In this document: positions 14,127-37,777 of the stretch, piece by piece
How the letters are laid out: the number at the start of each line of letters is the position of its first letter
Position numbering within the stretch: position 1 is the first letter of the stretch
Assembly: GCF_001424265.1 (NCBI RefSeq)
Contig: NZ_LMOV01000025.1
Span: 67,843 to 131,842, forward strand
Direction: 5' to 3'
Source of the DNA: Acidovorax sp. Leaf160
GTDB lineage: Bacteria; Pseudomonadota; Gammaproteobacteria; Burkholderiales; Burkholderiaceae_C
DNA: 64,000 bases
Made by a program: the position numbers and the translations under genes
The notes under the pieces: model-generated
Seen by the model: only the letters and a program-made list of their open reading frames with translations
What the model was told of the DNA's origin: nothing
The model's database searches: none

Positions 14127-14165
14127 CCGGAGCTGCGGTTCCGTCCGGATGAGCGACGGAACCGC
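14117..14165 (+). promoter_or_regulatory. Mutually exclusive hairpins after the leader peptide
   Basis: Hairpin A pairs GCTCAT (14117-14122) with ATGAGC (14149-14154) plus inner CCGGA (14127-14131) with TCCGG (14144-14148). Hairpin B pairs GCGGTTCCGTC (14135-14145) with GACGGAACCGC (14155-14165), a perfect 11-bp stem. A and B share bases and cannot coexist. A's 5' arm lies in the last leader codons, so ribosome position would choose between them. No U-run follows B, so the output could be Rho-dependent or translational. Confidence 0.55.
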
Positions 14166-14298
14166 CTGGCAGCCCCACCCCACCCCACTCCCCCTTGTTG
14201 CCGACCCTGGTCGGACTGCCCGAACGGTCACCCGGCGCATGCATCCGGCGGTACTCCGAAGCGGTCGTCGTTCTTCCGTCAGTCAACCAGGATTCGCC

Positions 14299-15213
14299 AT
14301 GCCCCACACCCCACCACCCGCAGCCCCCGCCACGCTCGATTTCTCCGGGCTCTGGGTTCCCCTCGTCACGCCCTTCCAGGGCGGACACATCGACCATGCC
14401 GCGCTGCGGGCGCTGGTGCAGCGCCTGGGCGGCAGCGGCATCGCCGGCTTCGTGGCCTGCGGCTCCACCGGCGAGGCGGCCGCGCTGGAGACCGAGGAGC
14501 AGGACGCGGTGCTGAGCGCCGTGATCGACGCCGCGGACGGCCTGCCGGTGGTGATGGGCCTGTCGGGCTACCACCTGGGCCTTGTGCTGGAGCGCGTGCG
14601 ACAGTTGAACCAGCGCCCGCTCGCCGGCCTGCTGCTGCCGGCGCCGCACTACATCCGACCGTCGCAGGCCGGGCTGCGGCAGTGGTTCGAGGCCATCGCC
14701 GACGCCAGCGCCCACCCGGTGATCGTCTACGACATTCCCTACCGCACAGGCGCCACGCTGGAGCTGGCCACGCTGCGCGCGCTGGCGGCGCACCCGCGCA
14801 TCCGCGCCATCAAGGACTGCGGCGGCGATGCGGCCAAGACCCAGGCGCTGATCGCCGACGGCGCGCTGCAGGTGCTGGCCGGCGAGGATGGGCAGATCTT
14901 CTCGACGCTGGCGCTCGGCGGCGCAGGCGCCATTGCCGCCAGCGCGCACTGGCGGCCCGAACGGCTGGTGGAATGCATGCGGGCCATCACCAAGGGCGAC
15001 CTGGACCGCGCCCGCCCGCTCTGGCAGGCGCTGGCCCCGCTGATACCGGCCCTGTTCGCCGAACCCAACCCCGCGCCGGTGAAGGCGCTGCTGGCGCAGC
15101 AAGGCTGGATGCATGCCGGGCTGCGCGCCCCGATGACGCCCGCATCGCCAGCACTGGCCCAGCGGCTGCGAGAGCTGGCTGCCGCGCAGGAAGAGGCGCT
15201 CGCGCGGCTCTGA
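14299..15213 (+). CDS. Dihydrodipicolinate synthase-family (DapA-like) aldolase
   Basis: 304 residues, ATG at 14299. The family forms a Schiff base between a lysine and pyruvate and condenses it with an aldehyde; DapA itself uses aspartate semialdehyde, the product of Asd. Seen: GSTGE (55-59), Tyr144 and Arg149 in VYDIPYRTG, Schiff-base Lys172 in AIKDCGG, and the C-terminal EPNPAPVKALL...LRAPMTP, which resembles genuine DHDPS enzymes. It is divergent enough from typical DapA (GTTGE) that another keto-acid aldolase is possible. The upstream Lys-codon leader supports a lysine-pathway role. It is flanked by moaD and moaE without functional connection. Confidence 0.82.
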   Translation: MPHTPPPAAPATLDFSGLWVPLVTPFQGGHIDHAALRALVQRLGGSGIAGFVACGSTGEAAALETEEQDAVLSAVIDAADGLPVVMGLSGYHLGLVLERVRQLNQRPLAGLLLPAPHYIRPSQAGLRQWFEAIADASAHPVIVYDIPYRTGATLELATLRALAAHPRIRAIKDCGGDAAKTQALIADGALQVLAGEDGQIFSTLALGGAGAIAASAHWRPERLVECMRAITKGDLDRARPLWQALAPLIPALFAEPNPAPVKALLAQQGWMHAGLRAPMTPASPALAQRLRELAAAQEEALARL

Positions 15214-15241
15214 GCGAAAGAAAAGGAAAAAGCGCCCGGCC

Positions 15242-15559
15242 TCAGCCGCCCGTGACCGGCGGGAAGAACGCCACCTCGGCGCCGGTTCGCAGCGCGGCGT
15301 CTTCGCCGCTCAGCGTCTGGTCCAACGCCATGCGCACGGCCCGGCCATGCCCCAGCGCCGTGGCCCACGGCTCGCCGCGCGCGATGAGTTCGGCGCGCAG
15401 CGCGCCCAGCGTGGCGGCCTGGGTCTGCACGGTTTCGCTGCCGTGGCCGAGGGCTTCGCGGATGGAGGCGAAGTAGCGCACCTCGACGCGCAATGTCGGC
15501 TGGACGGTGGCGGTTGCGGCTGCTGCGGCGCCCGCTGCGGGGGTGGATTCGAGGCTCAT
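15242..15559 (-). CDS. moaD: Molybdopterin synthase sulfur carrier subunit MoaD
   Basis: 105 residues ending in the ubiquitin-like double glycine (PPVTGG), the site of adenylation and thiocarboxylation. The core (LRVEVRYFASIREALG ... AEVAFFPPV) is typical; the first about 22 residues are an Ala/Thr-rich extension, so MoaD is longer than the usual 81. The start overlaps the moeA stop as ATGA (15556-15559), so it is coupled to moeA. Confidence 0.94.
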   Translation of the reverse strand: MSLESTPAAGAAAAATATVQPTLRVEVRYFASIREALGHGSETVQTQAATLGALRAELIARGEPWATALGHGRAVRMALDQTLSGEDAALRTGAEVAFFPPVTGG

Positions 15560-16803
15560 GACAGCAGATCGGCGAAGGAGATGAAGCGCACGACGTCGCC
15601 GCGCGCAATGGTCTGGCCGGCGGGGTTGTCCACCACGCCGTCGCCCCAGGCGGCGGAGGTGAGCACGCCGGAACTCTGGTTGCCGAAGCGCTCCAGCCGG
15701 CCTTCGGCGTTCCAGCGCACGCGCAGGAATTCGCGGCGCTTGTCGGCGCGCGGCCAGTCGAAGGCGGCGGTGGCGGCCATGGCCCGGGGCGCCACGTCGG
15801 CCGCGCCCTGCAGCGCCAGCAGGAAGGGCCGCACCAGCAGCGAGAAGGTGACGAAGCTCGACACCGGGTTGCCCGGCAGGCCCATGAAATGCGCCGCGAC
15901 CCGGGCGCCGGGAATGCGGCCATAGGCGAAGGGTTTGCCCGGCTTCATGGCGATCTGCCAGAGCCGCAGCTCGCCCAGCGCTTCCACGGCGGGCTTGATG
16001 TGGTCTTCCTCGCCCACCGACACGCCGCCGCTGGTCAGGATCAGGTCGTGCGACGCGGCGGCGCCCTGCAGCGCGTCGATCGTCGCGTCGCGCCGGTCGG
16101 GCACTATTCCTAAGTCGGTCACCTCGCAGCCCAGCCGGCGCAGCATGGCGCGCAGGAAGAAGCGGTTGCTGTTGTAGATGGCGCCGGGCGGCAGCTGCTC
16201 GGGCGCCACCTCGCCGGGCATGACGAGTTCGTCGCCGGTGGAAAAGAGCGCCACGCGCGGACGGCGCGACACCGCCAGCTGCGCCAGCCCGATGCTGGCG
16301 GCCAGCCCCAGCGCGGCCGGGCCCAGCCGCGTGCCGGCGGACAGCACCTGCGCGCCCCGCGTGATGTCTTCGCCCGCGCGGCGGATCCACTGGCCGGCTG
16401 CCGGCATGGCGTTGATGCGCACGCGCTCGCCGCCCTGCAGCGCCTCGCAGTCTTCCTGCATCACGATGGCATCGGCCCCGGCGGGCACCGGCGCACCCGT
16501 GAAGATGCGCGCCGCGGTGCCGGCCGCCAGCGGCTGGGCGGCGCTGCCGGCGGGAATGCGCTGCGAGACGGGCAGCTCGGTGCCGGCGGGACCCGCCAGG
16601 TCGGCCAGGTCGGCCACCCGCACGGCGTAGCCGTCCATCGAGCTGTTGTCGGCAGGCGGCACCTGCAGCGGCGATGTGGCGCCTTCGCGCAGCACGCGGC
16701 CATCGGCGTCGAACGTGTCCACGCGCTCCACGCCCAGCAAGGGCACGGCCTGGGCCAGCAGGTCAGCCAGCGCCTCGTCCAGGGGCTTCAAGGGGGCGCG
16801 CAT
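15556..16803 (-). CDS. moeA: Molybdopterin molybdenumtransferase MoeA
   Basis: 415 residues. MoeA inserts molybdate into adenylated molybdopterin. Seen: PPADNSSMDGYAVR near the N-terminus, GTAARIFTGAPVPAGADAIVMQED, the MoCF-fold active site LTSGGVSVGEEDH and GLPGNPVSSF. The ATG overlaps the mobB stop (TGATG at 16801-16805), and its TGA overlaps the moaD ATG, so mobB-moeA-moaD is one tightly coupled unit. Confidence 0.96.
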   Translation of the reverse strand: MRAPLKPLDEALADLLAQAVPLLGVERVDTFDADGRVLREGATSPLQVPPADNSSMDGYAVRVADLADLAGPAGTELPVSQRIPAGSAAQPLAAGTAARIFTGAPVPAGADAIVMQEDCEALQGGERVRINAMPAAGQWIRRAGEDITRGAQVLSAGTRLGPAALGLAASIGLAQLAVSRRPRVALFSTGDELVMPGEVAPEQLPPGAIYNSNRFFLRAMLRRLGCEVTDLGIVPDRRDATIDALQGAAASHDLILTSGGVSVGEEDHIKPAVEALGELRLWQIAMKPGKPFAYGRIPGARVAAHFMGLPGNPVSSFVTFSLLVRPFLLALQGAADVAPRAMAATAAFDWPRADKRREFLRVRWNAEGRLERFGNQSSGVLTSAAWGDGVVDNPAGQTIARGDVVRFISFADLLS

Positions 16804-17414
16804 CAGAGGGCTCCTGCGGGATGGATGGGGGCCAGAAAGGCGTCCGGCGGAGCCGCCTCCGGGGCGGCCGGCGCCTCGGGCGGGGCATAGTCGAAGCGCG
16901 CGCCCTGCGCCAGCAGCCAGTCCGCCAGCGCGGGCGGGTCGCGCACGTCGAACACCGGCAGCGCCGTGGGCGCGGGCAGGTCGGCCGGCGCGGCATCGGT
17001 GGCGATGGCGACGATGTAGCGGTCTTCGTCGTAGCGCGCGGGCCGCTCGCGGTACTCGGGCGACGGAGCGCGCCAGACCTCGACCTTGGGCAGGTCGCTT
17101 TCCTTGAAGCCTTCCACCAGCACCCAGTCCACGCCCGCGTCCAACTGGGCCAGCAGCGCATGCACGCTGATGGCGCCGGGCTGCTCGAATTCGCGCATCA
17201 CGGCCAGGCGGCGGTCGGACGCGACGGCGACCTCATAGGCACCGGCCTCGCGGTGGCGCCAGGTGTCCTTGCCGACATGGTCGATGTCGAAATTGTGGTG
17301 CGCGTGCTTGACCACCGACACGCGCATGCCGCGCAGGCGCAGCTCGGGAATCAGTTGCTCGACCAGCGTGGTCTTGCCGCAGCCCGAAAACCCGGCAAAG
17401 CCGACCACCTTCAT
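16803..17414 (-). CDS. mobB: Molybdopterin-guanine dinucleotide biosynthesis adapter MobB
   Basis: 203 residues. A P-loop GTPase-like adapter that aids MobA in attaching GMP to molybdopterin. Seen: GFSGCGKTTL at 8-17, VVKHAHHNFDIDHVGKDTWRHREAGA, and VDWVLVEGFKESDLPKVEVWR, all diagnostic. The C-terminal tail is Pro/Ala-rich. It is the first gene of the mobB-moeA-moaD unit. Confidence 0.95.
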   Translation of the reverse strand: MKVVGFAGFSGCGKTTLVEQLIPELRLRGMRVSVVKHAHHNFDIDHVGKDTWRHREAGAYEVAVASDRRLAVMREFEQPGAISVHALLAQLDAGVDWVLVEGFKESDLPKVEVWRAPSPEYRERPARYDEDRYIVAIATDAAPADLPAPTALPVFDVRDPPALADWLLAQGARFDYAPPEAPAAPEAAPPDAFLAPIHPAGAL

Positions 17415-17424
17415 CCTGATTCCT

Positions 17425-17476
17425 TCATGCTATTGAATTAATAGCTGCAGGCGCCCACGGAACGGGCGCTGCAGCC
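17425..17476 (+). repeat. Dispersed AT-rich repeat, copy 3
   Basis: GCTATTGAATTAATAGCTGC followed by an inverted pair GCGCCC / GGGCGC. It occupies the gap between thrC and mobB, both on the minus strand, and can fold as a strong hairpin in either direction. Confidence 0.75.
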
Positions 17477-18928
17477 TCAAAGGGCTTTGACTTCCGCTGC
17501 AGGCACGGTGCGGCGGATGTAGGCCTTCACGGCCTCAGCGTCGGCCGGCAGCACATGCACGCGCTTAGGGAGCGACTCGATGCCGTCGAACTTCGCCGGC
17601 CGCTCGGGTGCATGGCCCAGGGCTTCCACGATGGTGTCGGCGAACTTGATGGGCAGCGCCGTCTCCAGCACGATCATCGGCACGGCCGGGTCGCCGCGCT
17701 GTTCCAGCGCCACCTTCACGCCGTCGGCGGTGTGGGTGTCGATGGTCACGCCGTGGCGCTCGAAGTTGTCCTTGATGGTGGCCAAGCGGTCGGCATGCGT
17801 GCTCTTGCCGCTGGCAAAGCCGTAGCGCGTGGCGGCTTCGGCAAAGTGCGGGTCCTGGCTCAGGTCGAACCGCCCTTCGCTGGCGAGGGCGTCGCCGAAC
17901 AGCGCCTGCGTGCGCGCGGCGTCGCGGCCCAGCAGGTCGAACACGAAGCGCTCGAAGTTGCTGGCCTTGCTGATGTCCATGGACGGGCTCGACGTCTCGT
18001 GCGTGTCGGCGCTGCCGCGCACGCGGTAGACGCCGGTGCGGAAGAACTCGTCCAGCACGTCGTTCTCGTTGGTGGCCACCACCAGCCGCTCGATGGGCAG
18101 GCCCATCATGCGGGCCACGTGGCCGGCGCAGACGTTGCCGAAATTGCCCGAAGGCACGGTGAAGCTGACCTTCTGGTCGTTGGTTTCCGTCGCCTGCACG
18201 TAGCCGGCGAAGTAATAAACGACCTGCGCCAGCAGCCGCGCCCAGTTGATCGAGTTCACGGTGCCGATCTTGTACTGGCGCTTGAATTCCAGGTCGTTGC
18301 TGACGGCCTTGACGATGTCCTGGCAGTCGTCGAACACGCCGGCGATGGCGATGTTGTGGATGTTTTCGTCCTGCAGGCTGAACATCTGCGCCTGCTGGAA
18401 GGGGCTCATGCGGCCGCTGGGGCTGGTCATGAAGACGCGCACGCCGGCCTTGCCCTTCATGGCGTATTCGGCCGCGCTGCCCGTGTCGCCGCTGGTCGCG
18501 CCCAGGATGTTGAGCTGCTCGCCGCGCCGGCCCAGCTCGTATTCGAACAGGTGGCCCAGCAGCTGCATGGCCATGTCCTTGAAGGCCAGCGTGGGGCCGT
18601 TGGACAGGGCTTCGAGCCAGAGGCCGTCTTCGAGGTGGCGCAGCGGCACGATCTCGCCGGTGCCGAAGACCTCGGCCGTGTAGGTCTTCTCGCACAGGCG
18701 CTTCAGGTCGGCGGCGGGAATGTCGTCGATGTAGAGCGACAGGATCTGGAAGGCGAGCTCGGCGTAGCCCTGCTCGTGGTAGGCCGTGCGCAGGCGGGTG
18801 AGCATGGCGTCATCGATCTGCGGATAGTGCTCGGGCAGGTACAGGCCGCCGTCCGGCACCAGGCCTTCGAGCAGGATGTCGCAGAAATGCTTGCGATCCG
18901 GGTGGCCGCGCGTGGAGAGGTACAGCAT
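17477..18928 (-). CDS. thrC: Threonine synthase ThrC
   Basis: 483 residues. A PLP enzyme that converts O-phosphohomoserine to threonine. Seen: YLSTRG N-terminus, PLP lysine Lys117 in PTLAFKDMAMQ, GATSGDTGSAAEYA and SGNFGNV. The length and N-terminal domain match the long beta/gamma-proteobacterial class. The start overlaps the hom stop as TGATG (18926-18930), so hom and thrC are translationally coupled. Confidence 0.97.
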   Translation of the reverse strand: MLYLSTRGHPDRKHFCDILLEGLVPDGGLYLPEHYPQIDDAMLTRLRTAYHEQGYAELAFQILSLYIDDIPAADLKRLCEKTYTAEVFGTGEIVPLRHLEDGLWLEALSNGPTLAFKDMAMQLLGHLFEYELGRRGEQLNILGATSGDTGSAAEYAMKGKAGVRVFMTSPSGRMSPFQQAQMFSLQDENIHNIAIAGVFDDCQDIVKAVSNDLEFKRQYKIGTVNSINWARLLAQVVYYFAGYVQATETNDQKVSFTVPSGNFGNVCAGHVARMMGLPIERLVVATNENDVLDEFFRTGVYRVRGSADTHETSSPSMDISKASNFERFVFDLLGRDAARTQALFGDALASEGRFDLSQDPHFAEAATRYGFASGKSTHADRLATIKDNFERHGVTIDTHTADGVKVALEQRGDPAVPMIVLETALPIKFADTIVEALGHAPERPAKFDGIESLPKRVHVLPADAEAVKAYIRRTVPAAEVKAL

Positions 18929-20274
18929 CAGTTCAGCTCCTCCTTGCGGATGCGGGTGATGGGCGCCAGCACGGTGGGCAGGGCCTGCATCTGGGCGATG
19001 GCATCGTTCATGGTGCCTTCGCGGGTTTCGTGCGTCAGGATGATGAGGTCGGTCTGCGCGGAATCCGCGCCGCCCACTTCGTCGGCCTCGCGCTGCAGCA
19101 CGGCGTCGATGCTGATGCCGGCGCCCGCCAGCAGGCCCGTCACCTTGGCCAGCACGCCGGCCTGGTCGGCCACGCGCAGGCGCAGGTAGTAGCTGGTGAC
19201 GACTTCGCTCATCGGCAGCACGGGCAGCTGGGCCTGGGCCTGGTCCAGCGTGTGCGACTGGAAGGCCAGGTGCGGCACGCGGTGCTCGGGGTCGGCCGTG
19301 GCCAGGCGGGTGATGTCCACCAGGTCGGCGATCACGGCGCTGGCCGTGGGCTCGCTGCCCGCGCCCTTGCCGTAATAGAGCGTGGTGCCCACGGCATCGC
19401 CCTGCACCACCACGGCGTTCATGGCGCCCTCGACGTTGGCGATCAGGCGCTTGGCGGGCACCAGCGTGGGGTGCACGCGCAGCTCCACGCCATCGGTGCC
19501 CGCGCCGGTACGGCGCTTGGCGATCCCCAGCAGCTTGATGCGGTAGCCCAGCTGTTCGGCGTACTTGATGTCGGCGCCGGCCAGCTGGGTGATGCCTTCC
19601 ACGTAGGCCTTGTCGAACTGCACCGGAATGCCGAACGCGATGGCCGACATGATGGTGGCCTTGTGCGCGGCGTCCACGCCTTCGATGTCGAAGGTCGGGT
19701 CGGCCTCGGCATAGCCCAGCGCCTGGGCTTCCTTCAGCACCACGGCGAAGTCCAGCCCCTTGTCGCGCATCTCGGACAGGATGAAGTTGGTGGTGCCGTT
19801 GATGATGCCGGCGATCCACTGGATGCGGTTGGCCGTCAGGCCTTCGCGCAGCGCCTTGATGATCGGGATGCCACCGGCCACGGCGGCCTCGAAGGCGACC
19901 ATCACGCCCTTGGCGGAGGCGGCGGCGAAGATCTCGGTGCCATGCACGGCCAGCAGCGCCTTGTTGGCGGTGACCACGTGCTTGCCGGCGGCGATGGCTT
20001 CGAGCACCAGCGCGCGGGCGATGCCGTAGCCGCCGATGAGCTCGACCACGATGTCGATGTCGGGGTTGGCGATGACGGCACGGGCGTCGTTCACCACCTG
20101 CACGCCGGCACCGGCTGCGGCGCGCGCGCGCTCGACGTCCAGGTCGGCCACCATGGTGACTTCGATGCCGCGGCCGGCGCGGCGGCGGATCTCTTCCTGG
20201 TTGCGTTGCAGCACGTTGAAGACGCCGCTGCCGACGGTGCCAATGCCCAGCAGGCCTACTTGGATCGGTTTCAT
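18928..20274 (-). CDS. hom: Homoserine dehydrogenase Hom
   Basis: 448 residues from the ATG at 20274 (MKPIQVGLLG); an ATG 18 nt upstream gives a less typical start. It reduces aspartate semialdehyde to homoserine with NAD(P)H. Seen: nucleotide loop GIGTVGSGV, VTANKALLA, the catalytic EGVDAAHKA region, and a C-terminal ACT domain (RLRVADQAGVLAKVTGLLA), the usual site of threonine feedback. It is a single-function enzyme, not fused to aspartokinase. A dispersed repeat fills the alaA-hom gap. Confidence 0.97.
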   Translation of the reverse strand: MKPIQVGLLGIGTVGSGVFNVLQRNQEEIRRRAGRGIEVTMVADLDVERARAAAGAGVQVVNDARAVIANPDIDIVVELIGGYGIARALVLEAIAAGKHVVTANKALLAVHGTEIFAAASAKGVMVAFEAAVAGGIPIIKALREGLTANRIQWIAGIINGTTNFILSEMRDKGLDFAVVLKEAQALGYAEADPTFDIEGVDAAHKATIMSAIAFGIPVQFDKAYVEGITQLAGADIKYAEQLGYRIKLLGIAKRRTGAGTDGVELRVHPTLVPAKRLIANVEGAMNAVVVQGDAVGTTLYYGKGAGSEPTASAVIADLVDITRLATADPEHRVPHLAFQSHTLDQAQAQLPVLPMSEVVTSYYLRLRVADQAGVLAKVTGLLAGAGISIDAVLQREADEVGGADSAQTDLIILTHETREGTMNDAIAQMQALPTVLAPITRIRKEELN

Positions 20275-20289
20275 GGTCAAAATTTCAGT

Positions 20290-20340
20290 CAAATCGGGCT
20301 GCAGCGCTTGATGGATGGGCGCATACAGCTATCAAAAAAG
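20290..20340 (-). repeat. Dispersed AT-rich repeat, copy 4
   Basis: Minus strand: CTTTTTTGATAGCTG, a ATGCGCCCATCCATCAAGCGC core, then GATTTGACTG. It lacks the TTTGCTAT end. It lies between alaA and hom and would be in any common transcript. Confidence 0.7.
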
Positions 20341-20345
20341 GAGCA

Positions 20346-21575
20346 TCAGGCGGTGGCGTGCCGCTGCCGGTATTGGGCGAGGAATTCCGCCAGGCGGCCG
20401 ATGGCCACCCGCAGGTCGCCTTCATGCGGCAGGAACACGATGCGGAAGTGCTGGTTGTCCGGGAAGTTGAAGCCCGAGCCCTGCACCAGCATCACGCGCG
20501 TGGCACGCAACACCTCCATGAAGAATTGCCGGTCGTCCGCGATGGGGTACATCGCCGGGTCCAGGCGCGGGAACATGTAGAGCGCCGCCTGGGGTTTCAC
20601 GCAACTCACGCCCGGGATCGCCGAGATGAGCTCATAGGCCAGGTCACGCTGGCGCCGCAGCCGCCCGCCTTCCCTGACCAGGTCGTTGATGCTTTGGTAG
20701 CCGCCCAGCGCGGTCTGGATGGCCCACTGGCCGGGCACGTTGGAGCCCAGCTTCAGGTTGGCCAGCATGTTCAGGCCCTCGATGTAGTCCTTCGCGTCGT
20801 GCTTGGGGCCCGAGACGATCATCCAGCCGGCGCGGTAGCCGCACGAGCGATAGGCCTTGGAGAGCGAATTGAAGGTGAGCGTGAGCACGTCGGTGGACAG
20901 GCTGGCCATCGACGTGAACACGGCGCCCTCGTACAGCACCTTGTCATACACCTCGTCCACCAGCAGCACCAGGCCATGCTCGCGGGCGATGGCGACGATG
21001 CCCTTGAGCAGCTCCTTGGAATAGAGCACGCCGGTGGGGTTGTTGGGGTTGATGACCACGATGCCGCGGGTGCGCGGCGTGATCTTGGCGCGGATGTCCT
21101 CCAGGCTGGGCAGCCAGCTGTCCGCCTCGTCGCACAGGTAGTGCACCGGCTTGCCGCCGGACAGCGACACGGCGGCCGTCCAGAGCGGGTAGTCGGGCAT
21201 GGGCACCAGCAGCTCGTCGCCGTCGTCGAGCAATGCGTTGGTCGCCATCACGATCAGCTCGCTCGCCCCGTTGCCCAGGTAGATGTCGTCCAGCGTCACG
21301 CCGGCGATGCCCAGCTGCTGCGAGTAGTGCATCACCGCCTTGCGCGCCGCGAAGATGCCCTTGCTGTCCGAATAGCCGGCCGAATCGGGCAGGTTGCGGA
21401 TCATGTCCTGCTGGATCTCTTCCGGCGCGTCGAAGCCGAACGGCGCCATGTTGCCGATGTTCAGCTTGATGATCTTCTGGCCCTCGTCCTCCATCTGCTT
21501 GGCCGCATCCACGATCGGGCCGCGGACATCGTAGAGAACGTTATGGAGCTTGGCGGATTTGTGGACGGTCTTCAT
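20346..21575 (-). CDS. alaA: Glutamate-pyruvate (alanine) aminotransferase AlaA
   Basis: 409 residues from the ATG at 21575 (MKTVHKSAKL). A class I PLP aminotransferase making alanine from pyruvate and glutamate. Seen: LYDVRGPI and NIGNMAPFGFDAPEEI near the N-terminus, NPNNPTG at 176-182, and Schiff-base Lys240 in FNSLSKAYRS. Long stretches match what I recall of E. coli AlaA. It heads alaA-hom-thrC, a common beta-proteobacterial order, though alaA is 71 nt from hom with a repeat between. Confidence 0.93.
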   Translation of the reverse strand: MKTVHKSAKLHNVLYDVRGPIVDAAKQMEDEGQKIIKLNIGNMAPFGFDAPEEIQQDMIRNLPDSAGYSDSKGIFAARKAVMHYSQQLGIAGVTLDDIYLGNGASELIVMATNALLDDGDELLVPMPDYPLWTAAVSLSGGKPVHYLCDEADSWLPSLEDIRAKITPRTRGIVVINPNNPTGVLYSKELLKGIVAIAREHGLVLLVDEVYDKVLYEGAVFTSMASLSTDVLTLTFNSLSKAYRSCGYRAGWMIVSGPKHDAKDYIEGLNMLANLKLGSNVPGQWAIQTALGGYQSINDLVREGGRLRRQRDLAYELISAIPGVSCVKPQAALYMFPRLDPAMYPIADDRQFFMEVLRATRVMLVQGSGFNFPDNQHFRIVFLPHEGDLRVAIGRLAEFLAQYRQRHATA

Positions 21576-21653
21576 GCGGCGCGAACGCCAGCGCGGGGGC
21601 TGGCGGAAGAGGGGAATCGGTCCTGCGGGGCACGGCGCGCCCCCGGTGAAACC

Positions 21654-21659
21654 TATAAT
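21654..21659 (+). promoter_or_regulatory. Candidate -10 hexamer for the Mth938-like gene
   Basis: A perfect TATAAT in the 176-nt divergent gap between alaA and the Mth938-like gene. No convincing -35 stands at 16-18 nt, so this is only a candidate. Confidence 0.35.
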
Positions 21660-21751
21660 TTGACCACAGTTCTCCCAGGCGGAGCCGGGGCCGGCGCCCC
21701 TTCCATGCAGGCCACTCCCCCAGGGCCATGCCACACCGGACGCACCCATCC

Positions 21752-22150
21752 ATGAAGTTCCAACCCGATCGATCCAGCTCCCAGACCATCAGCGGCTACG
21801 GCCCCGGCTGGATCGGCGTGGACGCCGACCGCATCACGCACAGCGTGGTGCTGACCTCGGGCGGGGTGCGGATCGACTGGAACTGCGCGCGCTACGAAGA
21901 CCTGACGCCGGCACACTTCGCGCAGCTGGCAGAACTCGATTGCGAACTGGTGATCTTCGGCAGCGGCGGGCGCAACCGCTTTCCGCCGCCAGCCTGGCTG
22001 CAGCCGCTGATGGCGCGGCGCATCGGCCTGGAAACCATGGACACGCAGGCAGCCTGCCGCACCTACAACATCCTGTCGGGAGAGGGCCGCAACGTGGCGG
22101 CGGCCCTGCTGCTGGAAACCGGGCCTCAGGCGGGCGCGGCCCCTGCCTGA
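21752..22150 (+). CDS. Mth938-like domain (DUF498/NDUFAF3-type) protein
   Basis: 132 residues, start at 21752 (MKFQPDRSS). The pattern ISGYGPGWIGVDADRITHSVVLTSGG, then ELVIFGSGGRNRFPP and GLETMDTQAACRTYNILSGEGRNVAAALLL is the hallmark of the small Mth938-like fold; mitochondrial relatives (NDUFAF3) help assemble complex I. Its bacterial role is not established. It is followed by bcp on the same strand with a 158-nt gap, so they may be transcribed separately. Confidence 0.82.
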   Translation: MKFQPDRSSSQTISGYGPGWIGVDADRITHSVVLTSGGVRIDWNCARYEDLTPAHFAQLAELDCELVIFGSGGRNRFPPPAWLQPLMARRIGLETMDTQAACRTYNILSGEGRNVAAALLLETGPQAGAAPA

Positions 22151-22308
22151 GGGCGCGCGATTCGTGTCAACCGGTTACAGACTGCGAATCGCGAAAGAGA
22201 GCGTTTCAGGGTAAAATACCGGGTTGCGGTCGGGGGCACTTCCAAGAGCAATAACACACCCGCTCCCCCGGCTTTCCAGCGACTTTCTTCTTAGAGAGAC
22301 TAAGTGCC

Positions 22309-22794
22309 ATGGCGATCGTTGTCAACAAACCCCTCCCTGAATTTGAAGCCAACGCGACCGGCGGGATCAAGGTCTCCAACACCTCGCACCTGGGCCAGGT
22401 CATGGTGCTGTATTTCTACCCGAAGGACAACACCCCCGGCTGCACCACCGAAGCCATGCAGTTCCGCGACAAGTACAAGGACTTCGTGAAGGCCGGCGCC
22501 GCCGTCTTCGGCGTGTCTCGCGACAACATGAAGTCGCACGACGACTTCAAGGAAAAGCTCGAATTGCCCTTCGAACTCATCGCTGACACCGAAGAGAAGA
22601 TGTGCCACATGTTCGGCGTGGTCAAGAACAAGATCATGTACGGCAAGAAGGTCAAGGGCATCGAGCGCAGCACCTTCCTCGTTGGCCCCGATGGCATCCT
22701 GGTGGAAGAGTGGCGCGGTCTGAAGGTGCCCGGGCATGTGGACGACGTGCTGAAGGCCGTGAAGTCCATCAAGACACTGAAAAAAGCCGCCTGA
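22309..22794 (+). CDS. bcp: Thioredoxin-dependent peroxiredoxin, BCP/PrxQ family
   Basis: 161 residues. Reduces hydrogen peroxide and lipid hydroperoxides with electrons from thioredoxin. Peroxidatic Cys45 in PKDNTPGCTTEA is clear. The usual resolving Cys five residues later is absent (CTTEAM), while Cys99 (EEKMCHMFG) could act as a distant resolving residue, or the enzyme is 1-Cys. SRDNMKSHDDFKEKL and STFLVGPDG are also family features. A TAAAAT (22212-22217) lies upstream as a possible -10. Confidence 0.92.
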   Translation: MAIVVNKPLPEFEANATGGIKVSNTSHLGQVMVLYFYPKDNTPGCTTEAMQFRDKYKDFVKAGAAVFGVSRDNMKSHDDFKEKLELPFELIADTEEKMCHMFGVVKNKIMYGKKVKGIERSTFLVGPDGILVEEWRGLKVPGHVDDVLKAVKSIKTLKKAA

Positions 22795-22882
22795 ACGGCT
22801 GCGGCGACTTGCCGCAGACCGTCACCCAGAGTAGGCATAATGGGTCGATGCTTCAGAGCGATGCAACGACACATTCCCCGAC

Positions 22883-22913: not shown

Positions 22914-22961
22914 GCTTTTTGACGCGCTCTCTTCCTACTTCTTCCACGAGGCCCCTGCCCC

Positions 22962-28636: not shown

Positions 28637-29191
28637 ATGTCCGACCACAATCCAGCCAACGCCCCTGCGGGCCAGCAGCCCGCCCCCGAAGAAGTCGAAG
28701 CCGCGATGGCGGCCCACACGTCCGACGAGCTGAGCCGGCTGCAGAACGAGCTGGCCGAGCTCAAGGCCAAGAGCGCCGATCTGGCCGACCAGTTCCTGCG
28801 CGCCAAGGCCGAGGCCGAGAATGCGCGCCGCCGGGCCGAAGACGAGGTGTCGAAAGCGCGCAAGTTCGGCATCGAGAGCTTTGCCGAAAGCCTGCTGCCG
28901 GTGGCCGACAGCCTGGCCGCCGCGCTGGCCATCAAGGACGCGACGCCCGAGCAGCTGCGCGAAGGCTCCGACGCCACGCTGCGCCAGCTGACCGCCGCAC
29001 TGGAGCGCAACAAGGTGCTGGCGATCAACCCGGCCGCCGGCGAGAAGTTCGACCCGCACCAGCACCAGGCGATCAGCGTGGTGCCGGCCGAGCAGGAGGC
29101 CAACACCGTTGTCACCGTGCTGCAAAAGGGCTATGTGATCGCCGACCGCGTGCTGCGGCCCGCCCTGGTGACGGTGACGGCGCCGAAGTAA
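28637..29191 (+). CDS. grpE: Nucleotide exchange factor GrpE
   Basis: 184 residues. Acidic disordered N-terminus, long coiled coil ([32 protein letters not shown]), then the beta domain with [11 protein letters not shown] and [21 protein letters not shown] that opens the DnaK nucleotide cleft. First of the grpE-dnaK-dnaJ trio; 141 nt to dnaK. Confidence 0.97.
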
Positions 29192-29263
29192 GGCAAGGCG
29201 CCTGCGCCGGGGCGAACGTGCGCCCCACGGCATCCCGACCCTCAAATTTTTAGGGTCCGCCGG

Positions 29264-29291
29264 CTTGAAGCCGGACAAGTTATCCACAAGT
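29264..29291 (+). promoter_or_regulatory. Sigma-32-like promoter of dnaK
   Basis: CTTGAA (29264-29269), 14-nt spacer, CCACAAGT (5 of 8 to CCCCATNT). The predicted start lies near 29298, about 35 nt before the dnaK ATG. The -10 part overlaps a perfect DnaA box. Confidence 0.5.
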
Positions 29292-29305
29292 TACGGTCAT
29301 CCACA
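29280..29305 (+). promoter_or_regulatory. Two DnaA-box nonamers before dnaK
   Basis: TTATCCACA at 29280-29288 (perfect) and TCATCCACA at 29297-29305 (one mismatch), same orientation, 17 nt apart, straddling the predicted dnaK promoter. Confidence 0.5.
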
Positions 29306-29332
29306 TTTTTTGTCAGACAAGCGGAGAACAAC

Positions 29333-31297
<1,965 letters not shown>

Positions 31298-31388
31298 TCT
31301 CCGCGCGAGCGTGATCCGCTAGCCGCCGCGCCAGGCCCTCCCCCAGGGGCCAGCGCGGCGTTCCTGTTCCAACGAGGCTCGAAAAGAC

Positions 31389-32531
31389 ATGTCCAAGAGA
31401 GACTATTACGAAGTGCTGGGCGTTCCCAAGAACGCCTCGGACGACGAAATCAAGAAGGCTTATCGCAAGCTGGCGATGAAGCACCACCCGGACCGCAACC
31501 AGGGTGATGCCGCCAAGCCGGCGGAAGAGAAGTTCAAGGAGGCCAAGGAGGCCTACGAGATGCTCTCCGATCCGCAGAAGCGCGCGGCCTATGACCAGTA
31601 CGGCCATGCCGGCGTGGACCCGAACATGCGCGGCCCGGGTGCCGGCGCAGAGGGTTTCGGCGGCTTCGCCGAGGCGTTCGGCGACATCTTCGGCGACATG
31701 TTCGGCCAGCAGCGCGGCGGCGCACGGGGCGCGGGCGGCCGGCAGGTCTACCGCGGCAACGACCTGAGCTATGCGATGGAAGTCACGCTGGAAGAAGCCG
31801 CCAAGGGCAAGGAAGCGCAGATCCGCATCCCCTCGTGGGATTCGTGCGAAACCTGCCACGGCAGCGGTGCCAAGCCGGGCACCAGCGCCAAGACCTGCGG
31901 CACCTGCCAGGGGTCGGGCACGGTGCAGATGCGCCAGGGCTTCTTCAGCGTGCAGCAGACCTGCCCGCACTGCCGCGGCACGGGCAAGATCATTCCCGAG
32001 CCCTGCGGCACCTGCCACGGCCAGGGCAAGGTCAAGAAGCAGAAGACGCTGGAAGTGAAGATCCCCGCCGGCATCGACGACGGCATGCGCATCCGCAGCA
32101 CGGGCAACGGCGAGCCGGGCTCCAACGGCGGGCCGCCGGGCGACCTCTACATCGAGATCCGCGTCAAGAAGCACGACATCTTCGAGCGCGACGGCGACGA
32201 CCTGCACTGCCAGGTGCCGGTGAGCTTCATCACCGCCGCGCTGGGCGGCGAGATCGAAGTGCCCACGCTGGCGGGCAAGGCGGCCATCGACATTCCGGAG
32301 GGCACCCAGGCCGGCAAGCAGTTCCGCCTGCGCGGCAAGGGCATCAAGGGTGTGCGCTCCAGCTACCCGGGCGACCTGTACTGCCACATCGCGGTGGAGA
32401 CGCCGGTCAAGCTGACCGAGCACCAGCGCAAGCTGCTGAAGGAACTGGACGAGTCGCTGAAGAAGGGTGGCGCCAAGCATTCGCCGACGGGCGAGAGCTG
32501 GACGGATCGGCTGAAGAACCTCTTCACCTGA
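31389..32531 (+). CDS. dnaJ: Chaperone DnaJ (Hsp40)
   Basis: 380 residues. J-domain with HPD (KHHPDRN), a Gly/Phe-rich region near 75-115, four CxxCxGxG zinc motifs ([32 protein letters not shown]), and the C-terminal substrate domain. Type I DnaJ. Follows dnaK by 91 nt; a strong terminator ends the unit. Confidence 0.98.
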
Positions 32532-32573
32532 CCGGGACCAGGGCCCCGCTCCCCGCCCCCTTCCGCACGAAAG

Positions 32574-32611
32574 ACCGCTCCGCGCCTCCTGGCCCGGGGC
32601 GGTTTTTTTTT
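32574..32611 (+). terminator. Rho-independent terminator of grpE-dnaK-dnaJ
   Basis: ACCGCTCCG (32574-32582) pairs with CGGGGCGGT (32595-32603), one G-U pair, then a run of nine T. Confidence 0.88.
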
Positions 32612-32699
32612 GGAGATGGCGGCGTGGCTGCGCAAGGGCCCATGGGCACGGCCATCCGCCGGCCCGCAGCGGCCGATGGGCGCTCCCGCGCCTCGCTCC

Positions 32700-32755
32700 A
32701 CTATCTTTTCAATAGCACGCTGCGCTGGTCAATCCTCGCATTGGAAGTCAAAGCA
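32700..32755 (+). repeat. Dispersed AT-rich repeat, copy 6 (degenerate)
   Basis: CTATCTTTTCAATAGC followed by TGCGCTGG and a GCATTGGAAG end. The left arm is family-like; the right half has drifted. Confidence 0.45.
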
Positions 32756-32948
32756 GCCCCAATGCCTGACGCCCCTTCGGGATGCCGCTATCTTTTTCGG
32801 AGCGCCAACGCGATCGATGAGGCCAGGGCCGGTGATAGGCGATGGACGCCATCGTAATCCACGATGGCCGGGAGCCCGTGGCTGTAGGAAAATCGCTTCA
32901 GCTTCTCCAAACGAGAAGAAGCCCAAGCCCCCCCAGCCTCCTCCACCG

Positions 32949-33926
32949 ATGAAAAGCTCCGAGCGCAGTTTTGCGCGCCGTATCGACCTCACCTCGCTGC
33001 AGCTCTTCGTGGCCGTCTGCGAGCTGGGCAGCATCGGGCGTGCGGCGGAGCGGGAATTCATCGCTGCATCGGCGGTCAGCAAACGGCTGTCCGACCTGGA
33101 AACCGCCGTCGACACCCCGCTGCTCTACCGCCACAGCCGGGGCGTCACGCTCACGCCGGCGGGCGAGAGCCTGCTGCACCATGCCCGCACCGTGCTCTTC
33201 GGGCTGGAACGCATGCAGGGCGAGTTGAGCGAATACGCGGGCGGCGTGCGCGGCCATGTGCGCATGCATTCCAACATTTCGGCCATCGTGCAGTTCCTGC
33301 CCGAAGACCTGGGCGCGTTTTCGCGCCTGCACGGCCAGATCAAGATCGACCTGCAGGAGCACCTCAGCCCCGCCGTGCTGCACGCCGTGCGCGAAGGCGC
33401 GGCCGACCTGGGCGTGTGCCACACGGGCACCCCCGCCGGCACGGCCGAGGGCCTGCAGATGCGGCCCTACCGCAGCGACCGGCTGATGGTCGTGGTACCC
33501 GAGGGCCACCCCATGGCCGGGCGCGAAGCCGTCGCCTTCCCGGAAGTGCTGGACTGGGACATCGTCGGCCTGCATGCCGGCAGCAGCATCAGCCTGGCGA
33601 TGCGCCAGGCTGCCGCGCACACGGCCCGGCCGCTGCGCCAGCGCATCCAGGTCACCGGGCTGGACGCCATGTGCCGCATGATCGACAACGGCCTGGGCGT
33701 GGGCCTGCTGCCCGACCGCGCCTTCGCGCTGATGCGCGGCGTGGGCCGGCTGCAGTCCGTGCCCCTCGACGAACCCTGGGCTGAGCGCCAGCTGCAGCTG
33801 GTGGCGCGCGACTTCGACGCCCTGCCCGTCACCGCGCGCCTGCTGGCCGAGCACCTTTCCGCCCTGCCGCCGCTGGCGATGCAGCCGCCCGATACGCTTC
33901 GGGAAGCCGCACCGGTCGGCGCGTAG
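32949..33926 (+). CDS. LysR-family transcriptional regulator
   Basis: 325 residues, ATG at 32949 (MKSSERSFARRIDL). N-terminal winged helix (LTSLQLFVAVCELGSIGRAAERE...AVSKRLSDLE), then the type 2 periplasmic-binding fold for a co-inducer. It lies 75 nt upstream of leuC in the same direction, not divergent as usual for LysR. It might regulate the leucine genes; the sequence alone does not show this. The gap to leuC is a pyrimidine-rich run without a clear promoter. Confidence 0.9.
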   Translation: MKSSERSFARRIDLTSLQLFVAVCELGSIGRAAEREFIAASAVSKRLSDLETAVDTPLLYRHSRGVTLTPAGESLLHHARTVLFGLERMQGELSEYAGGVRGHVRMHSNISAIVQFLPEDLGAFSRLHGQIKIDLQEHLSPAVLHAVREGAADLGVCHTGTPAGTAEGLQMRPYRSDRLMVVVPEGHPMAGREAVAFPEVLDWDIVGLHAGSSISLAMRQAAAHTARPLRQRIQVTGLDAMCRMIDNGLGVGLLPDRAFALMRGVGRLQSVPLDEPWAERQLQLVARDFDALPVTARLLAEHLSALPPLAMQPPDTLREAAPVGA

Positions 33927-34001
33927 GCCCAGCGTTCACTTCGTTTTCGTTTGCTTCAATTTCCGTTTTTTCCCCTTCCCCACGCAAGAAAAGAGACCGC
34001 C

Positions 34002-35423
34002 ATGGGACGCACCCTGTACGACAAGATCTGGGACGAGCACGCCGTCCATACCGAAGAGGACGGCACCACCATCCTCTACATCGACCGCCACCTGGTGCAT
34101 GAAGTGACCAGCCCGCAGGCCTTCGAGGGCCTGCGCCAGGCCGGCCGCAAGGTCTGGCGCGTCAGCTCCATCGTCGCCACGGCCGACCACAACACGCCCA
34201 CCACGGGCTGGGAACGGGGCTACGACGGCATCACCGACCCGATCAGCAAGGAACAGATCGTCACCCTGGACAAGAACATCGCCGAAGTGGGCGCCGCCGC
34301 CTTCTTCCCGTTCATGAGCAAACGCCAGGGCATCGTCCACGTGATCGGGCCCGAGAACGGCGCCACCCTGCCCGGCATGACCGTGGTCTGCGGCGACAGC
34401 CACACCAGCACGCACGGCGCCTTCGGTGCACTGGCGCACGGCATCGGCACCAGCGAGGTCGAGCACGTGATGGCCACGCAGACGCTGCTGGCCAAGAAGG
34501 CCAAGAACATGCTGATCCGCGTGGACGGCCAGGTGTCGCCCGGCGTGACGGCCAAGGACATCGTGCTGGCCATCATCGGCAAGATCGGCACGGCCGGCGG
34601 CACGGGCTACACCATCGAGTTCGCCGGCCCCGCCATCCGCGCGCTCAGCATGGAAGGCCGCATGACGGTCTGCAACATGGCCATAGAGGCCGGCGCCCGC
34701 GCCGGGCTGGTGGCGGTGGACGACAAGACCATCGAGTACGTGAAGGGCCGCCCCCTGTCGCCCACCGGCGTCGAATGGGACCAGGCCGTCGCCTACTGGA
34801 AGACGCTGCATTCCGATGCCGACGCCCAGTTCGACACCGTCGTCACCCTGAACGGCGCCGACATCGTGCCGCAGGTCACCTGGGGCACCTCGCCCGAGAT
34901 GGTGCTGGGCGTGGACGCCCGCGTGCCCGACCCCGACAAGGAAAAGGACGCCAACAAGCGCGGCGCCATCGAGCGCGCGCTGACCTACATGGCGCTGGAG
35001 CCCGGCAAGCCGCTGGCCGACATCTTCGTGGACAAGGTGTTCATCGGCAGCTGCACCAACAGCCGCATCGAGGACATGCGCGAAGCCGCCGCCGTGGTGA
35101 AGAAGCTGGGCCAGAAGGTCGCCAAGAACATCAAGGTCGCGATGGTCGTTCCGGGCTCCGGCCTGGTGAAGGAGCAGGCCGAGCGCGAGGGCCTGGACCA
35201 GGTCTTCAAGGCCGCGGGCTTCGAGTGGCGCGAGCCGGGCTGCTCCATGTGCCTGGCCATGAACGCCGACCGGCTGGAGCCGGGCGAGCGCTGTGCTTCC
35301 ACCAGCAACCGCAACTTCGAAGGCCGCCAGGGCGCGGGCGGACGCACCCACCTGGTCAGCCCCGCCATGGCCGCCGCCGCCGCCGTGCACGGGCACTTCG
35401 TGGACATCCGCCAGTTCGCCTGA
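34002..35423 (+). CDS. leuC: 3-isopropylmalate dehydratase large subunit LeuC
   Basis: 473 residues. With LeuD isomerises 2- to 3-isopropylmalate through a [4Fe-4S] cluster. Cluster cysteines appear in [26 protein letters not shown] and [26 protein letters not shown] closes the active site. Full length. First enzyme gene of the leuC-entericidin-leuD-leuB group. Confidence 0.98.
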
Positions 35424-35449
35424 GCGGCACGGCCCCGGAGCAAACCGCC

Positions 35450-35578
35450 ATGAAGACCTCCTTCACCGCCGTGCTCGCGCTGGCCCTCGCCGCGCTGCTG
35501 GCCGGCTGCAACACCGTCAAGGGCATGGGCCAGGACGTGCAGCGCGCCGGCAGCGCCATCGAGCGCGCCGCCAAGTAA
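35450..35578 (+). CDS. Entericidin A/B-family small lipoprotein
   Basis: 42 residues. Signal peptide MKTSFTAVLALALAALLAGC with lipobox LAGC, then a short amphipathic mature part (NTVKGMGQDVQRAGSAIERAAK), as in entericidins, which are small membrane lipoproteins linked to envelope stress. It sits between leuC and leuD with a CGGAG site before the ATG. I recall the same insertion in other Burkholderiales, suggesting a stable arrangement; its link to leucine synthesis is unknown. Confidence 0.88.
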   Translation: MKTSFTAVLALALAALLAGCNTVKGMGQDVQRAGSAIERAAK

Positions 35579-35608
35579 ACCGAACCGCACCGAACCGCAC
35601 CGAACCGA
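35579..35608 (+). repeat. Tandem 10-bp repeat, three units, before leuD
   Basis: ACCGAACCGC twice and ACCGAACCGA once, filling most of the 42-nt gap between the entericidin stop and the leuD ATG. No good ribosome site is visible for leuD. Confidence 0.8.
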
Positions 35609-35620
35609 CCGTTTCACACC

Positions 35621-36271
35621 ATGCAGAAATTCACCATCCACCAAGGTCTCGTGGCGCCCATGGACCGCGAGAACGTCGATACCGACGCCATCATCCCCAA
35701 GCAGTTCCTCAAGTCGATCAAGAAGACCGGCTTCGGCGTGAACCTGTTCGACGAGTGGCGCTACCTGGACCACGGCGAACCCGGCCAGGACCCGGCCAGC
35801 CGCAAGCCCAACCCCGACTTCGTGCTGAACCAGCCGCGCTATGCCGGCGCCTCGGTGCTGCTCGCGCGCAAGAACTTCGGCTGCGGATCGAGCCGCGAGC
35901 ATGCGCCCTGGGCGCTGGACCAGTACGGCTTCCGCGCCGTCATCGCGCCCAGCTTTGCCGACATCTTCTTCAACAACTGCTTCAAGAACGGCCTGCTGCC
36001 CATCGTGCTGCCCGAGGCCACCGTGGGCCAGCTGTTCGACGAGGTGCACGCCTTCCCGGGCTACGAGCTGACCATCGACCTGGAGCGCCAGGTCATCGTG
36101 CGCCCGCAGGGCGAGGAGATCCCCTTCGAGGTGAACGCCTTCCGCAAGTACTGCCTGCTGAACGGCTTCGACGACATCGGCCTCACCCTGCGCCAGTCCG
36201 AGAAGATCAAGGCCTTCGAGTCCGAGCGCCTGGCGACCAAGCCGTGGCTGGCGCACACCATGGCCAGCTGA
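35621..36271 (+). CDS. leuD: 3-isopropylmalate dehydratase small subunit LeuD
   Basis: 216 residues. Swivelling domain with [20 protein letters not shown] and the substrate loop [13 protein letters not shown], diagnostic of LeuD1. Completes the LeuCD enzyme. Lacks an obvious Shine-Dalgarno, so translation may depend on the entericidin ORF. Confidence 0.98.
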
Positions 36272-36290
36272 ACGGCCCGCAACCACGCCA

Positions 36291-36350
36291 AATATTGATC
36301 AAAACAGGCTGCAGCGCAGGAAACACCTGCGCATTCAGCTATCAAAAGAG
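36291..36350 (-). repeat. Dispersed AT-rich repeat, copy 7
   Basis: Minus strand: TTTTGATAGCTG, ATGCGCAGG, CTGCGCTGCAGCC, then TTTTGATCAATA. It lies between leuD and leuB within the presumed operon, leaving 11 nt to the leuB ATG. Confidence 0.7.
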
Positions 36351-36361
36351 AAGCAAAAAGC

Positions 36362-37432
<1,071 letters not shown>

Positions 37433-37457
37433 CCCGCAACGGCCCCTGGCTTGCGCG

Positions 37458-37481
37458 AAGCGGCCTTGCGGCCGCTTTTTT
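37458..37481 (+). terminator. Rho-independent terminator after leuB
   Basis: AAGCGGCC (37458-37465), TTGC loop, GGCCGCTT (37470-37477), ending in six T. Confidence 0.88.
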
Positions 37482-37579
37482 CTGGGCGGGCCGGTGTGCG
37501 GGGGTGGCACGGTGGCGCGGTGGCGCGCTGGAGCAACACGCAGGGGCCGATGCGCAACCTGCATGGGCAGCGCGTGCAC

Positions 37580-37585
37580 TACAAT
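37580..37585 (+). promoter_or_regulatory. -10-like hexamer for the asd leader
   Basis: TACAAT, 8 nt before the leader ATG at 37594. No strong -35 at the usual spacing. Same geometry as the DapA-like leader. Confidence 0.45.
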
Positions 37586-37593
37586 CCCTCCCC

Positions 37594-37695
37594 ATGTTTG
37601 CCGCCCGCCCGTTCACCCTGAACACCACCGCTGCCGCCCTGGCTGCCGTGGCCGTGCGCGCAATCACCACCAAAACCACGACCATTACGGGCTGA
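37594..37695 (+). CDS. Candidate threonine/isoleucine-rich leader peptide of asd
   Basis: 33 codons ending ITTKTTTITG: five Thr, two Ile and one Lys in the final ten residues, all amino acids derived from aspartate semialdehyde. The first 23 residues are unremarkable (MFAARPFTLNTTAAALAAVA...). It resembles the logic of the E. coli thr operon leader, a classical attenuator. TGA at 37693-37695 is followed after 3 nt by a 15-nt block shared with the DapA-like leader. Expression is not proven; the amino-acid run and placement are seen, the role is inferred. Confidence 0.6.
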   Translation: MFAARPFTLNTTAAALAAVAVRAITTKTTTITG

Positions 37696-37777
37696 TCCAG
37701 CTCCGGTTCCGTCGTGCGCCCCTCCTGGCCCTGACGAGCCGGGCAGGAACAGTCCCGGTCGGGCATTGTTTCTTCTT
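37677..37777 (+). promoter_or_regulatory. Candidate attenuator of asd
   Basis: CACGAC in the leader Thr codons (37677-37682) can pair with GTCGTG (37711-37716); GTTCC (37706-37710) can instead pair with GGAAC (37746-37750); and CCGGG (37739-37743) with CCCGG (37754-37758), followed by U-rich TTGTTTCTTCTT. The last two pairings overlap around GGAAC and exclude each other. The terminator stem is short (5 bp), so the model is tentative. Confidence 0.4.

Follow-up and report, generated by a model that had tools for sequence, protein, structure and literature searches.

The 64,000-nt stretch of Acidovorax sp. Leaf160 DNA analyzed here (the window) carries two genes of the aspartate pathway on its forward strand: asd, encoding aspartate-semialdehyde dehydrogenase, and a paralogue of dapA, encoding a protein of the 4-hydroxy-tetrahydrodipicolinate synthase family. 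Each gene is preceded by a short open reading frame (ORF), whose frame is conserved and whose tail codons suit the pathway, and by a structured RNA, which upholds the proposal of a preliminary description of this DNA that both genes have aspartate-pathway regulatory leaders. Comparison with related genomes makes it likely that the two leaders are separate ribosome-dependent attenuators, one responding to Thr, Ile, and Lys upstream of asd and the other to Lys upstream of the dapA paralogue; these tiny leader ORFs probably let the cell sense amino acids of lysine and threonine synthesis. The most unusual result is the form of the asd leader in relatives where it is fused to LeuB.

Leader ORF and competing RNA helices upstream of asd

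The asd leader of the window and its presumed target comprise the following features.

37580 to 37585, forward strand: TACAAT, -10 box for the presumed transcript of the asd leader, with the leader ATG 8 nt further on
37594 to 37695, forward strand: asd leader peptide ORF of 33 codons, MFAARPFTLNTTAAALAAVAVRAITTKTTTITG and a stop, with the Thr/Ile/Lys tail ITTKTTTITG
37703 to 37713, forward strand: arm 2, core of the 15-nt block AGCTCCGGTTCCGTC, which pairs with arm 3 and contains one bulged C that most fetched relatives lack
37724 to 37729, forward strand: arm 2.5, CCTGGC, which pairs with arm 3 in a competing hairpin (partner swaps, alignment covariation)
37733 to 37742, forward strand: arm 3, GACGAGCCGG, common to both mutually exclusive helices (partner swaps, alignments)
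37799 to 38929, forward strand: asd, the presumed regulated gene (TIGR01745, 596.4 bits; cut-off, 402.9)

With only 8 nt between TACAAT and its ATG, the asd leader ORF should be (nearly) leaderless. Relatives were represented by the best 80 of 590 confirmed asd loci, the nearest named one being that of Paracidovorax wautersii (Comamonadaceae; 96% identity). A Thr/Ile/Lys-rich tail followed by the RNA was found in 73 of these 80 loci (with a partly decayed tail in L037), and the remaining seven (L011, L041, L058, L062, L070, L073, and L079) have no leader in a leuB-asd gap of 15 to 79 nt; they are apparently losses or an older state. Together with the window (74 loci), the set holds 51 free leader ORFs and 23 tails fused to LeuB. 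Thr (313), Lys (141), and Ile (134) account for 588 of the 740 residues in the last 10 positions of these 74 leaders. When in-frame ATGs alone were considered, one was found 6 to 9 nt past a TACAAT-like hexamer in 51/51 free leaders, a spacing that therefore leaves no room for a Shine-Dalgarno (SD) sequence. In a frame-blind control, the first ATG located 3 to 16 nt past the hexamer was in frame in 50/50 free loci yielding a start; in L034, the one remaining free locus, an out-of-frame ATG stands 2 nt past the hexamer, below the 3-nt cut. Start, frame, and tail are kept across the free leaders, and the middle of the peptide is variable. A sigma-70 consensus scan returned no promoter at either the asd or the Lys leader of the window.

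The asd leader covariance model R1, run with stricter filters in both the family and the order searches, matched 100 of 120 family genomes at an E value of ≤0.01, four of them through weak matches alone (5e-4 to 0.007). It matched 4 of 150 genomes of an order-wide draw at an E value of ≤0.001, all four from the same family, and 17 of the 17 genomes of the window's genus; where a genome had more than one match, the extra matches were weak. The 92 R1 loci examined (90 of the 96 strong family matches and 2 from the order search) had a recognizable asd gene after the element in 91 cases.

The stop codon of the leader ORF is followed by arm 2, then by a spacer with the sequence CGCCC, and then by arms 2.5 and 3; arms 2 and 2.5 are alternative partners of arm 3, which cannot pair with both. 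In an alignment-free partner-swap test of the 51 free leaders, own arms fitted each other better than swapped arms, with 0/1,000 swaps as good for helix 2:3 and 0/1,000 for helix 2.5:3, and the same result (0/1,000 each) was obtained with 24 divergent free leaders. Ten fused leaders gave 16/1,000 (2:3) and 26/1,000 (2.5:3) swaps as good; the 13 fused leaders with a differently spelled arm 3 were left out. An earlier swap test of helix 2:3 on 73 leaders (L059 left out, L033 mis-cut) yielded 0/2,000 overall and 38/2,000 for the fused leaders alone. In an unselected alignment of 50 sequences, 90.6% (2:3) and 87.9% (2.5:3) of the cells were paired, and the covariation score of helix 2.5:3 was reached by 0/500 shuffles. 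A second alignment of 33 sequences was selected from 34 distinct ones for the presence of GG(T/C)TCGTC and GACGAGC (L029, with a longer spacer, was left out); here, 97.5% (2:3) and 98.0% (2.5:3) of the cells were paired; about 7 of the 12 pairs of helix 2:3 are fixed by the choice of sequences, so that its percentage says little. The scores of this alignment were reached by 10/500 (2:3) and 0/500 (2.5:3) shuffles, and the paired cells of helix 2:3 by 15/500. Its information comes mainly from a single arm 3 column with A or G, which fits the two partners alike. Whole-leader minimum free energy folds were not unusual (z scores of -0.44 for dapA and -1.80 for asd), and RNAalifold on a mixed alignment yielded little.

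Fusion of the asd leader to LeuB

The genes leuD and leuB precede asd in the window, where the free leader transcript and the end of leuB are parted by a terminator-like hairpin with a T run (37454 to 37480), 3' of leuB.

36362 to 37432, forward strand: leuB, upstream neighbor of asd, with the ordinary end VKALA before its stop

In relatives, the leader tail often forms the end of LeuB itself. Among the 92 R1 loci, the tail is in frame at the LeuB end in 46 (including L268, assigned after reading its frame) and free in 45, and L252 received no call. The sequence GCTACAAT, spanning conserved Ala-Thr-Ile codons read as GCT-ACA-AT, was found inside 45/46 fused leuB genes, with Met as the third residue in one, and in 0/32 free-leader genomes with a readable site (13 were unreadable). 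The named set gave a similar picture, with the embedded site present in 23/23 fused, 0/37 free (window included), and 0/7 leaderless loci and 14 loci unreadable; the two sets may share species, and their counts are not additive. The 23 fused leuB genes have no synonymous variation at the Ala and Thr codons (GCT, 23; ACA, 23), and 44 other leuB genes have mostly GCC (37) and ACC (36) there. In the fused genes, an in-frame ATG-ATG follows TACAAT at a distance of 13 nt, a spacing like that of a near-leaderless transcript. We read this as an embedded promoter, whose product would be a truncated piece of LeuB with the leader tail at its end. No good -35 box was seen at this site. The only one of the 46 fused leaders without an embedded TACAAT (L233, in genome G068) presumably depends on the leuB transcript.

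Hydrogenophaga, Curvibacter, and Limnohabitans, as named in the records, each include both free and fused leaders, and Rhodoferax includes free and leaderless loci. The asd protein tree, with 17 label changes as drawn and 11 of 78 inner branches starred, is too poorly resolved to count switches between the free and fused forms. Two loci in records titled as Singulisphaera (L039) and Akkermansia muciniphila (L067) metagenome-assembled genomes carry the host family's leader and fall near Limnohabitans in this tree, so that their contigs or titles are probably wrong. When free leaders were aligned with leuB 3' ends, the best alignments fell at the expected place in 27% (fused leuB) and 31% (leuB of free-leader genomes) of cases versus 10 to 16% for shuffled leaders, which only suggests that the free leader arose from the 3' end of leuB. 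Taken jointly, these comparisons make it reasonably probable that the asd leader peptide is the C-terminal tail of LeuB in about half of the family, where ribosomes finishing LeuB would set the switch; that a leuB-internal promoter yields a truncated, near-leaderless leader; that the two forms interconvert within genera, with a free leader that may descend from the leuB 3' end; and that the second leader is a Lys-codon attenuator.

Lysine-rich leader upstream of the dapA paralogue

Five matches to the DapA-like protein of the window were found in its own genome, one being the protein itself and the best of the others having 32% identity; we call the gene a paralogue because this other homologue lies elsewhere in the genome. 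Its leader region comprises the following features.

14024 to 14029, forward strand: -10-like TACACT, 7 nt before the ATG of the Lys leader
14037 to 14126, forward strand: Lys leader peptide ORF of 29 codons, MPSRTHSTSIAAQPAALRCAGKAKKPQLI and a stop, with the tail KAKKPQLI
14117 to 14123, forward strand: segment 1, GCTCATC, in the last codons before the stop, which pairs with 14148 to 14154 (covariation alignment)
14135 to 14145, forward strand: segment 2, GCGGTTCCGTC, core of the 15-nt block, which pairs with 14155 to 14165 (covariation alignment)
14148 to 14154, forward strand: segment 2.5, GATGAGC, partner of segment 1 (covariation alignment)
14155 to 14165, forward strand: segment 3, GACGGAACCGC, partner of segment 2 (covariation alignment)
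14299 to 15213, forward strand: dapA paralogue (TIGR00674, 227.6 bits; cut-off, 206.15)

A covariance model of this leader (R2) matched 30 of 120 family genomes at an E value of ≤0.01, and 26 of these matches were strong (E < 1e-6). The paralogue was located downstream, with 52 to 100% identity, in 26/26 strong loci (for L218, the leader-gene order was taken from coordinates), and the four weak loci lack it. Within the window's genus, a strong R2 match occurs in 8/17 genomes and the paralogue in 15/17. Most tails resemble K(S/A)KKPQLI; some leaders carry H, N, or Q in place of a Lys, and L217 has a decayed version; 51 of the 152 residues in the last 8 positions of 19 dapA-type tails (including that of the frame-broken G004) are Lys. 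The frame was tested in the 26 strong family loci, of which 5 gave no start and 1 no tail; the ATG lies 5 to 8 nt past the -10 hexamer and is in frame in 19/20 loci yielding a start. Seven of 14 further loci of the genus have the leader, five of them in frame, including L147, which has a second hexamer that is out of frame; L149 gave no start by the pattern, and G004 was again frame-broken. The AAA-AAA run of the Lys leader was considered as a site of programmed frameshifting, an idea dropped because the run is absent from some leaders.

Two helices are supported in this leader. Helix 1:2.5 had 95.0% of its cells paired and 2 two-sided pair changes, each measure being reached by 1/500 shuffles. 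For helix 2:3, 88.8% of the cells were paired and neither this value nor the covariation score was matched by any of 500 shuffles, and its two-sided pair changes were reached by 151/500. The two helices should not coexist because segments 2.5 and 3 are separated by zero bases in the window.

Probable attenuation and its alternatives

The preliminary description had connected the two leaders through a 15-nt block, and its observations hold in place: AGCTGCGGTTCCGTC lies at 14131 to 14145, 4 nt past the TGA of its short ORF, and AGCTCCGGTTCCGTC at 37699 to 37713, 3 nt past that of the other, each ORF following a -10-like hexamer at 7 nt (TACACT) or 8 nt (TACAAT). It had gone on to propose one common RNA module, duplicated before asd and the DapA gene. 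Such a module, if read by a single shared factor, would account for the 14/15 identity of the blocks and their equal position past the leader stops in the window, and each block is indeed one arm of a helix. The window, however, holds 2,029 same-strand pairs of 15-mers with exactly one mismatch and 232 identical pairs, and a block search allowing ≤3 mismatches gave 7 matches versus 6.7 expected, so that the match does not exceed chance by its sequence; its weight comes from the placement of the blocks after two leader ORFs, each in a leader conserved in relatives. A degenerate form of the block occurs at exactly two places in the 4.72-Mb genome, those from which the pattern was built. The looser pattern GCTSCGGTTCSGTC occurs at 23 places in 16 genomes of 60 relatives searched, and contexts assigned by reading put 10 of them upstream of the dapA paralogue, a single one upstream of asd (that of the window), and the other 12 in different settings, which is partly what the description had named as a refuting outcome. 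Most fetched relatives have CCGGTTCGTC or CCTGGTTCGTC as their asd block, and the 14/15 match is due in part to the extra bulged C of the window. Strong R2 loci come from 26 genomes, of which 21 could be compared (G072, G089, and G106 have no strong R1 locus; G032 and G155 were left out because a wrong stretch had been cut): the identity is 14/15 only in the window's genome and 8 to 12 in the others, and blocks from one genome resemble each other no more than blocks paired across genomes do (means of 9.14 and 9.06 identities). The separate covariance models agree with this block comparison in contradicting the duplication, as R1 matches one place in the window's genome (E ≤ 0.01), R2 matches solely the other (E ≤ 1), and neither cross-hits. 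The competing helices are also laid out differently in the two leaders. We hence regard a duplicated module as the most improbable of the alternatives; the leaders appear to share a plan (near-leaderless ORF, pathway codons, and competing helices after the stop) rather than a sequence family, and the likeness of the two blocks is best explained as a coincidence to which a one-base insertion contributed.

Two further explanations concern how each leader would act by itself. If the leader RNAs were riboswitches or protein-binding elements with incidental ORFs, a very improbable case in our judgment, their strong conservation and the broken Lys leader frame of one genome would be accommodated, but the ORF start and frame are kept while the ORF middle diverges, LeuB fusions keep the tail within a translated gene, and no Rfam family matches the window's leaders. 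An Rfam scan of the window returned no family at the gathering score and, at E values up to 10, chance-level matches to unrelated families; neither the Thr leader (RF00506; gathering score or E up to 10) nor the lysine riboswitch (RF00168) was matched. Arrest peptides, whose nascent tails (e.g., TTKTTTIKG or KSKKPQLI) would stall the ribosome on a ligand rather than by slow codon decoding, are unlikely, if less so than incidental ORFs. The tails are conserved beyond amino acid richness, frequently ending in Lys-Gly, Thr-Gly, or Lys-Ser (asd) and Leu-Ile or Leu-Val (dapA); yet the asd tails differ in how many Thr, Ile, and Lys residues they have and in how these are ordered (ITKTITKG, ITTTTKTIKS, and ITGKTITTKT), and conservation of the dapA tail would be explained by its last codons, which form an RNA pairing segment.

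Ribosome-dependent attenuation is favored by several features of both leaders: the short ORFs end in codons for pathway amino acids, the elements precede asd in 91 of 92 R1 loci and the dapA paralogue in all 26 strong R2 loci, sequence comparison indicates that the frame is kept across the asd and Lys leaders with one frame-broken genome, and mutually exclusive helices occur in each, with weaker support for helix 2:3 of asd. Since the arms adjoin the stop codon, we infer that the position of the ribosome would set the choice of helix. A ribosome covers about 10 nt beyond the stop codon. With ample charged tRNA, it would reach the stop and mask either the 5' half of arm 2, in the asd leader, or segment 1, in the dapA leader; with scarce charged Thr, Ile, or Lys tRNA, it would stall upstream, the alternative helix would form, and expression would rise. 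The asd leader would sense most products of its own pathway, as asd feeds Lys, Thr, Ile, and Met synthesis, and the leader of the DapA paralogue would sense lysine. In roughly half of the relatives examined, LeuB carries the tail of the asd leader as its C terminus, and this tail would also be reached from the leuB-internal promoter.

Several results weigh against attenuation. The loci are related, so that counts are not independent. Few pair columns of the asd helices vary; two-sided pair changes in the 33-sequence alignment were not above shuffles (reached by 434/500 for 2:3 and 498/500 for 2.5:3), and the covariation score of helix 2:3 in the 50 sequences showed no excess (454/500), since gaps misplace part of arm 2. 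Upstream of the dapA paralogue, an extra base breaks the Lys leader frame in G004, and seven paralogues of the same genus have no leader. The asd leader tests supported neither a terminator nor occlusion of the start site as output. By folding, SD accessibility was not lower with the ribosome at the stop and was higher with a stalled ribosome in only 34/74 leaders, and pairing of the SD with the CGCCC spacer was weak (99/2,000 swaps as good in 73 leaders; 1,281/2,000 for the free and 60/2,000 for the fused leaders alone). Hairpin formation of arm 3 with the downstream region was worse for own than for swapped partners (999/1,000, 51 free leaders), and U-tract hairpins resembled those of shuffles, 38% of which were as good in 50 free leaders and 57% in 9 fused leaders. 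As candidate outputs, SD sequestration is thus unsupported by folding and weak by partner swapping, and a role of arm 3 in an intrinsic terminator is unsupported by the swap and U-tract hairpin tests.

The ORF of the E. coli thr operon leader is rich in Thr and Ile codons. The asd leader resembles this system (RF00506) in its Thr/Ile-rich ORF, mutually exclusive helices, and downstream aspartate-pathway gene, and differs from it in its target (asd), added Lys codons, lack of a clear terminator, apparently leaderless ORF, and confinement of R1 matches to one family among the order genomes drawn. The E. coli ampC promoter lies inside frdD, and the frd terminator acts as the ampC attenuator; the fused asd leaders are similar in that the promoter of a downstream gene would lie within an upstream coding sequence, although we know of no leader peptide fused to the upstream protein and no amino acid sensed in ampC/frdD. 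The available text on Sinorhizobium meliloti trpL describes a transcript that begins at the leader ATG and ribosome-dependent attenuation, as proposed here, for other amino acids and genes and with no mention of fusion to an upstream enzyme (PMC7298713). RNA control of lysine biosynthesis genes is known from the lysine riboswitch (L box; RF00168) (PMC3766115, PMC1262725, as far as their accessible text goes); lysine would here be sensed via translated Lys codons. An Rfam-based survey, in the portion available, lists attenuators for His, Leu, Thr, and Trp, with those for Ile/Val and Phe known elsewhere (PMC3766115); lysine is absent from that list and assigned to the riboswitch (PMC3766115, PMC1262725). 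Leader peptides for Leu, Trp, and Met are described for Campylobacter in the accessible part of PMC3847290. A literature search that covered few subscription journals, partly in excerpt, found no description of a leader fused to LeuB, of a leader peptide for lysine, or of an asd leader in the host family. If correct, attenuation at these genes would extend codon-based control to lysine and to the enzyme at the branch point of the aspartate family. A LeuB-built leader would be a new twist on the classic switch: the leader peptide of an attenuator could be the tail of a working enzyme, with the promoter in the enzyme's synonymous codons. This would offer a natural case for the birth or absorption of leader peptides, and unusual codon usage and C-terminal extensions of metabolic genes could have a regulatory role.

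Around the dapA paralogue, whose start was taken as 14299, an ATG at 14149 inside the leader RNA is in frame with the gene and opens a 354-codon ORF to 15213; annotation pipelines could use it and lengthen the protein. The interval between the Lys leader and the gene (14166 to 14298) contains a pyrimidine-rich stretch, as do the L106 to L149 loci that have the leader, and a small hairpin ending in CGGTC was seen by eye near the start codon in many relatives. Both are possible candidates for Rho-dependent or start-site control.

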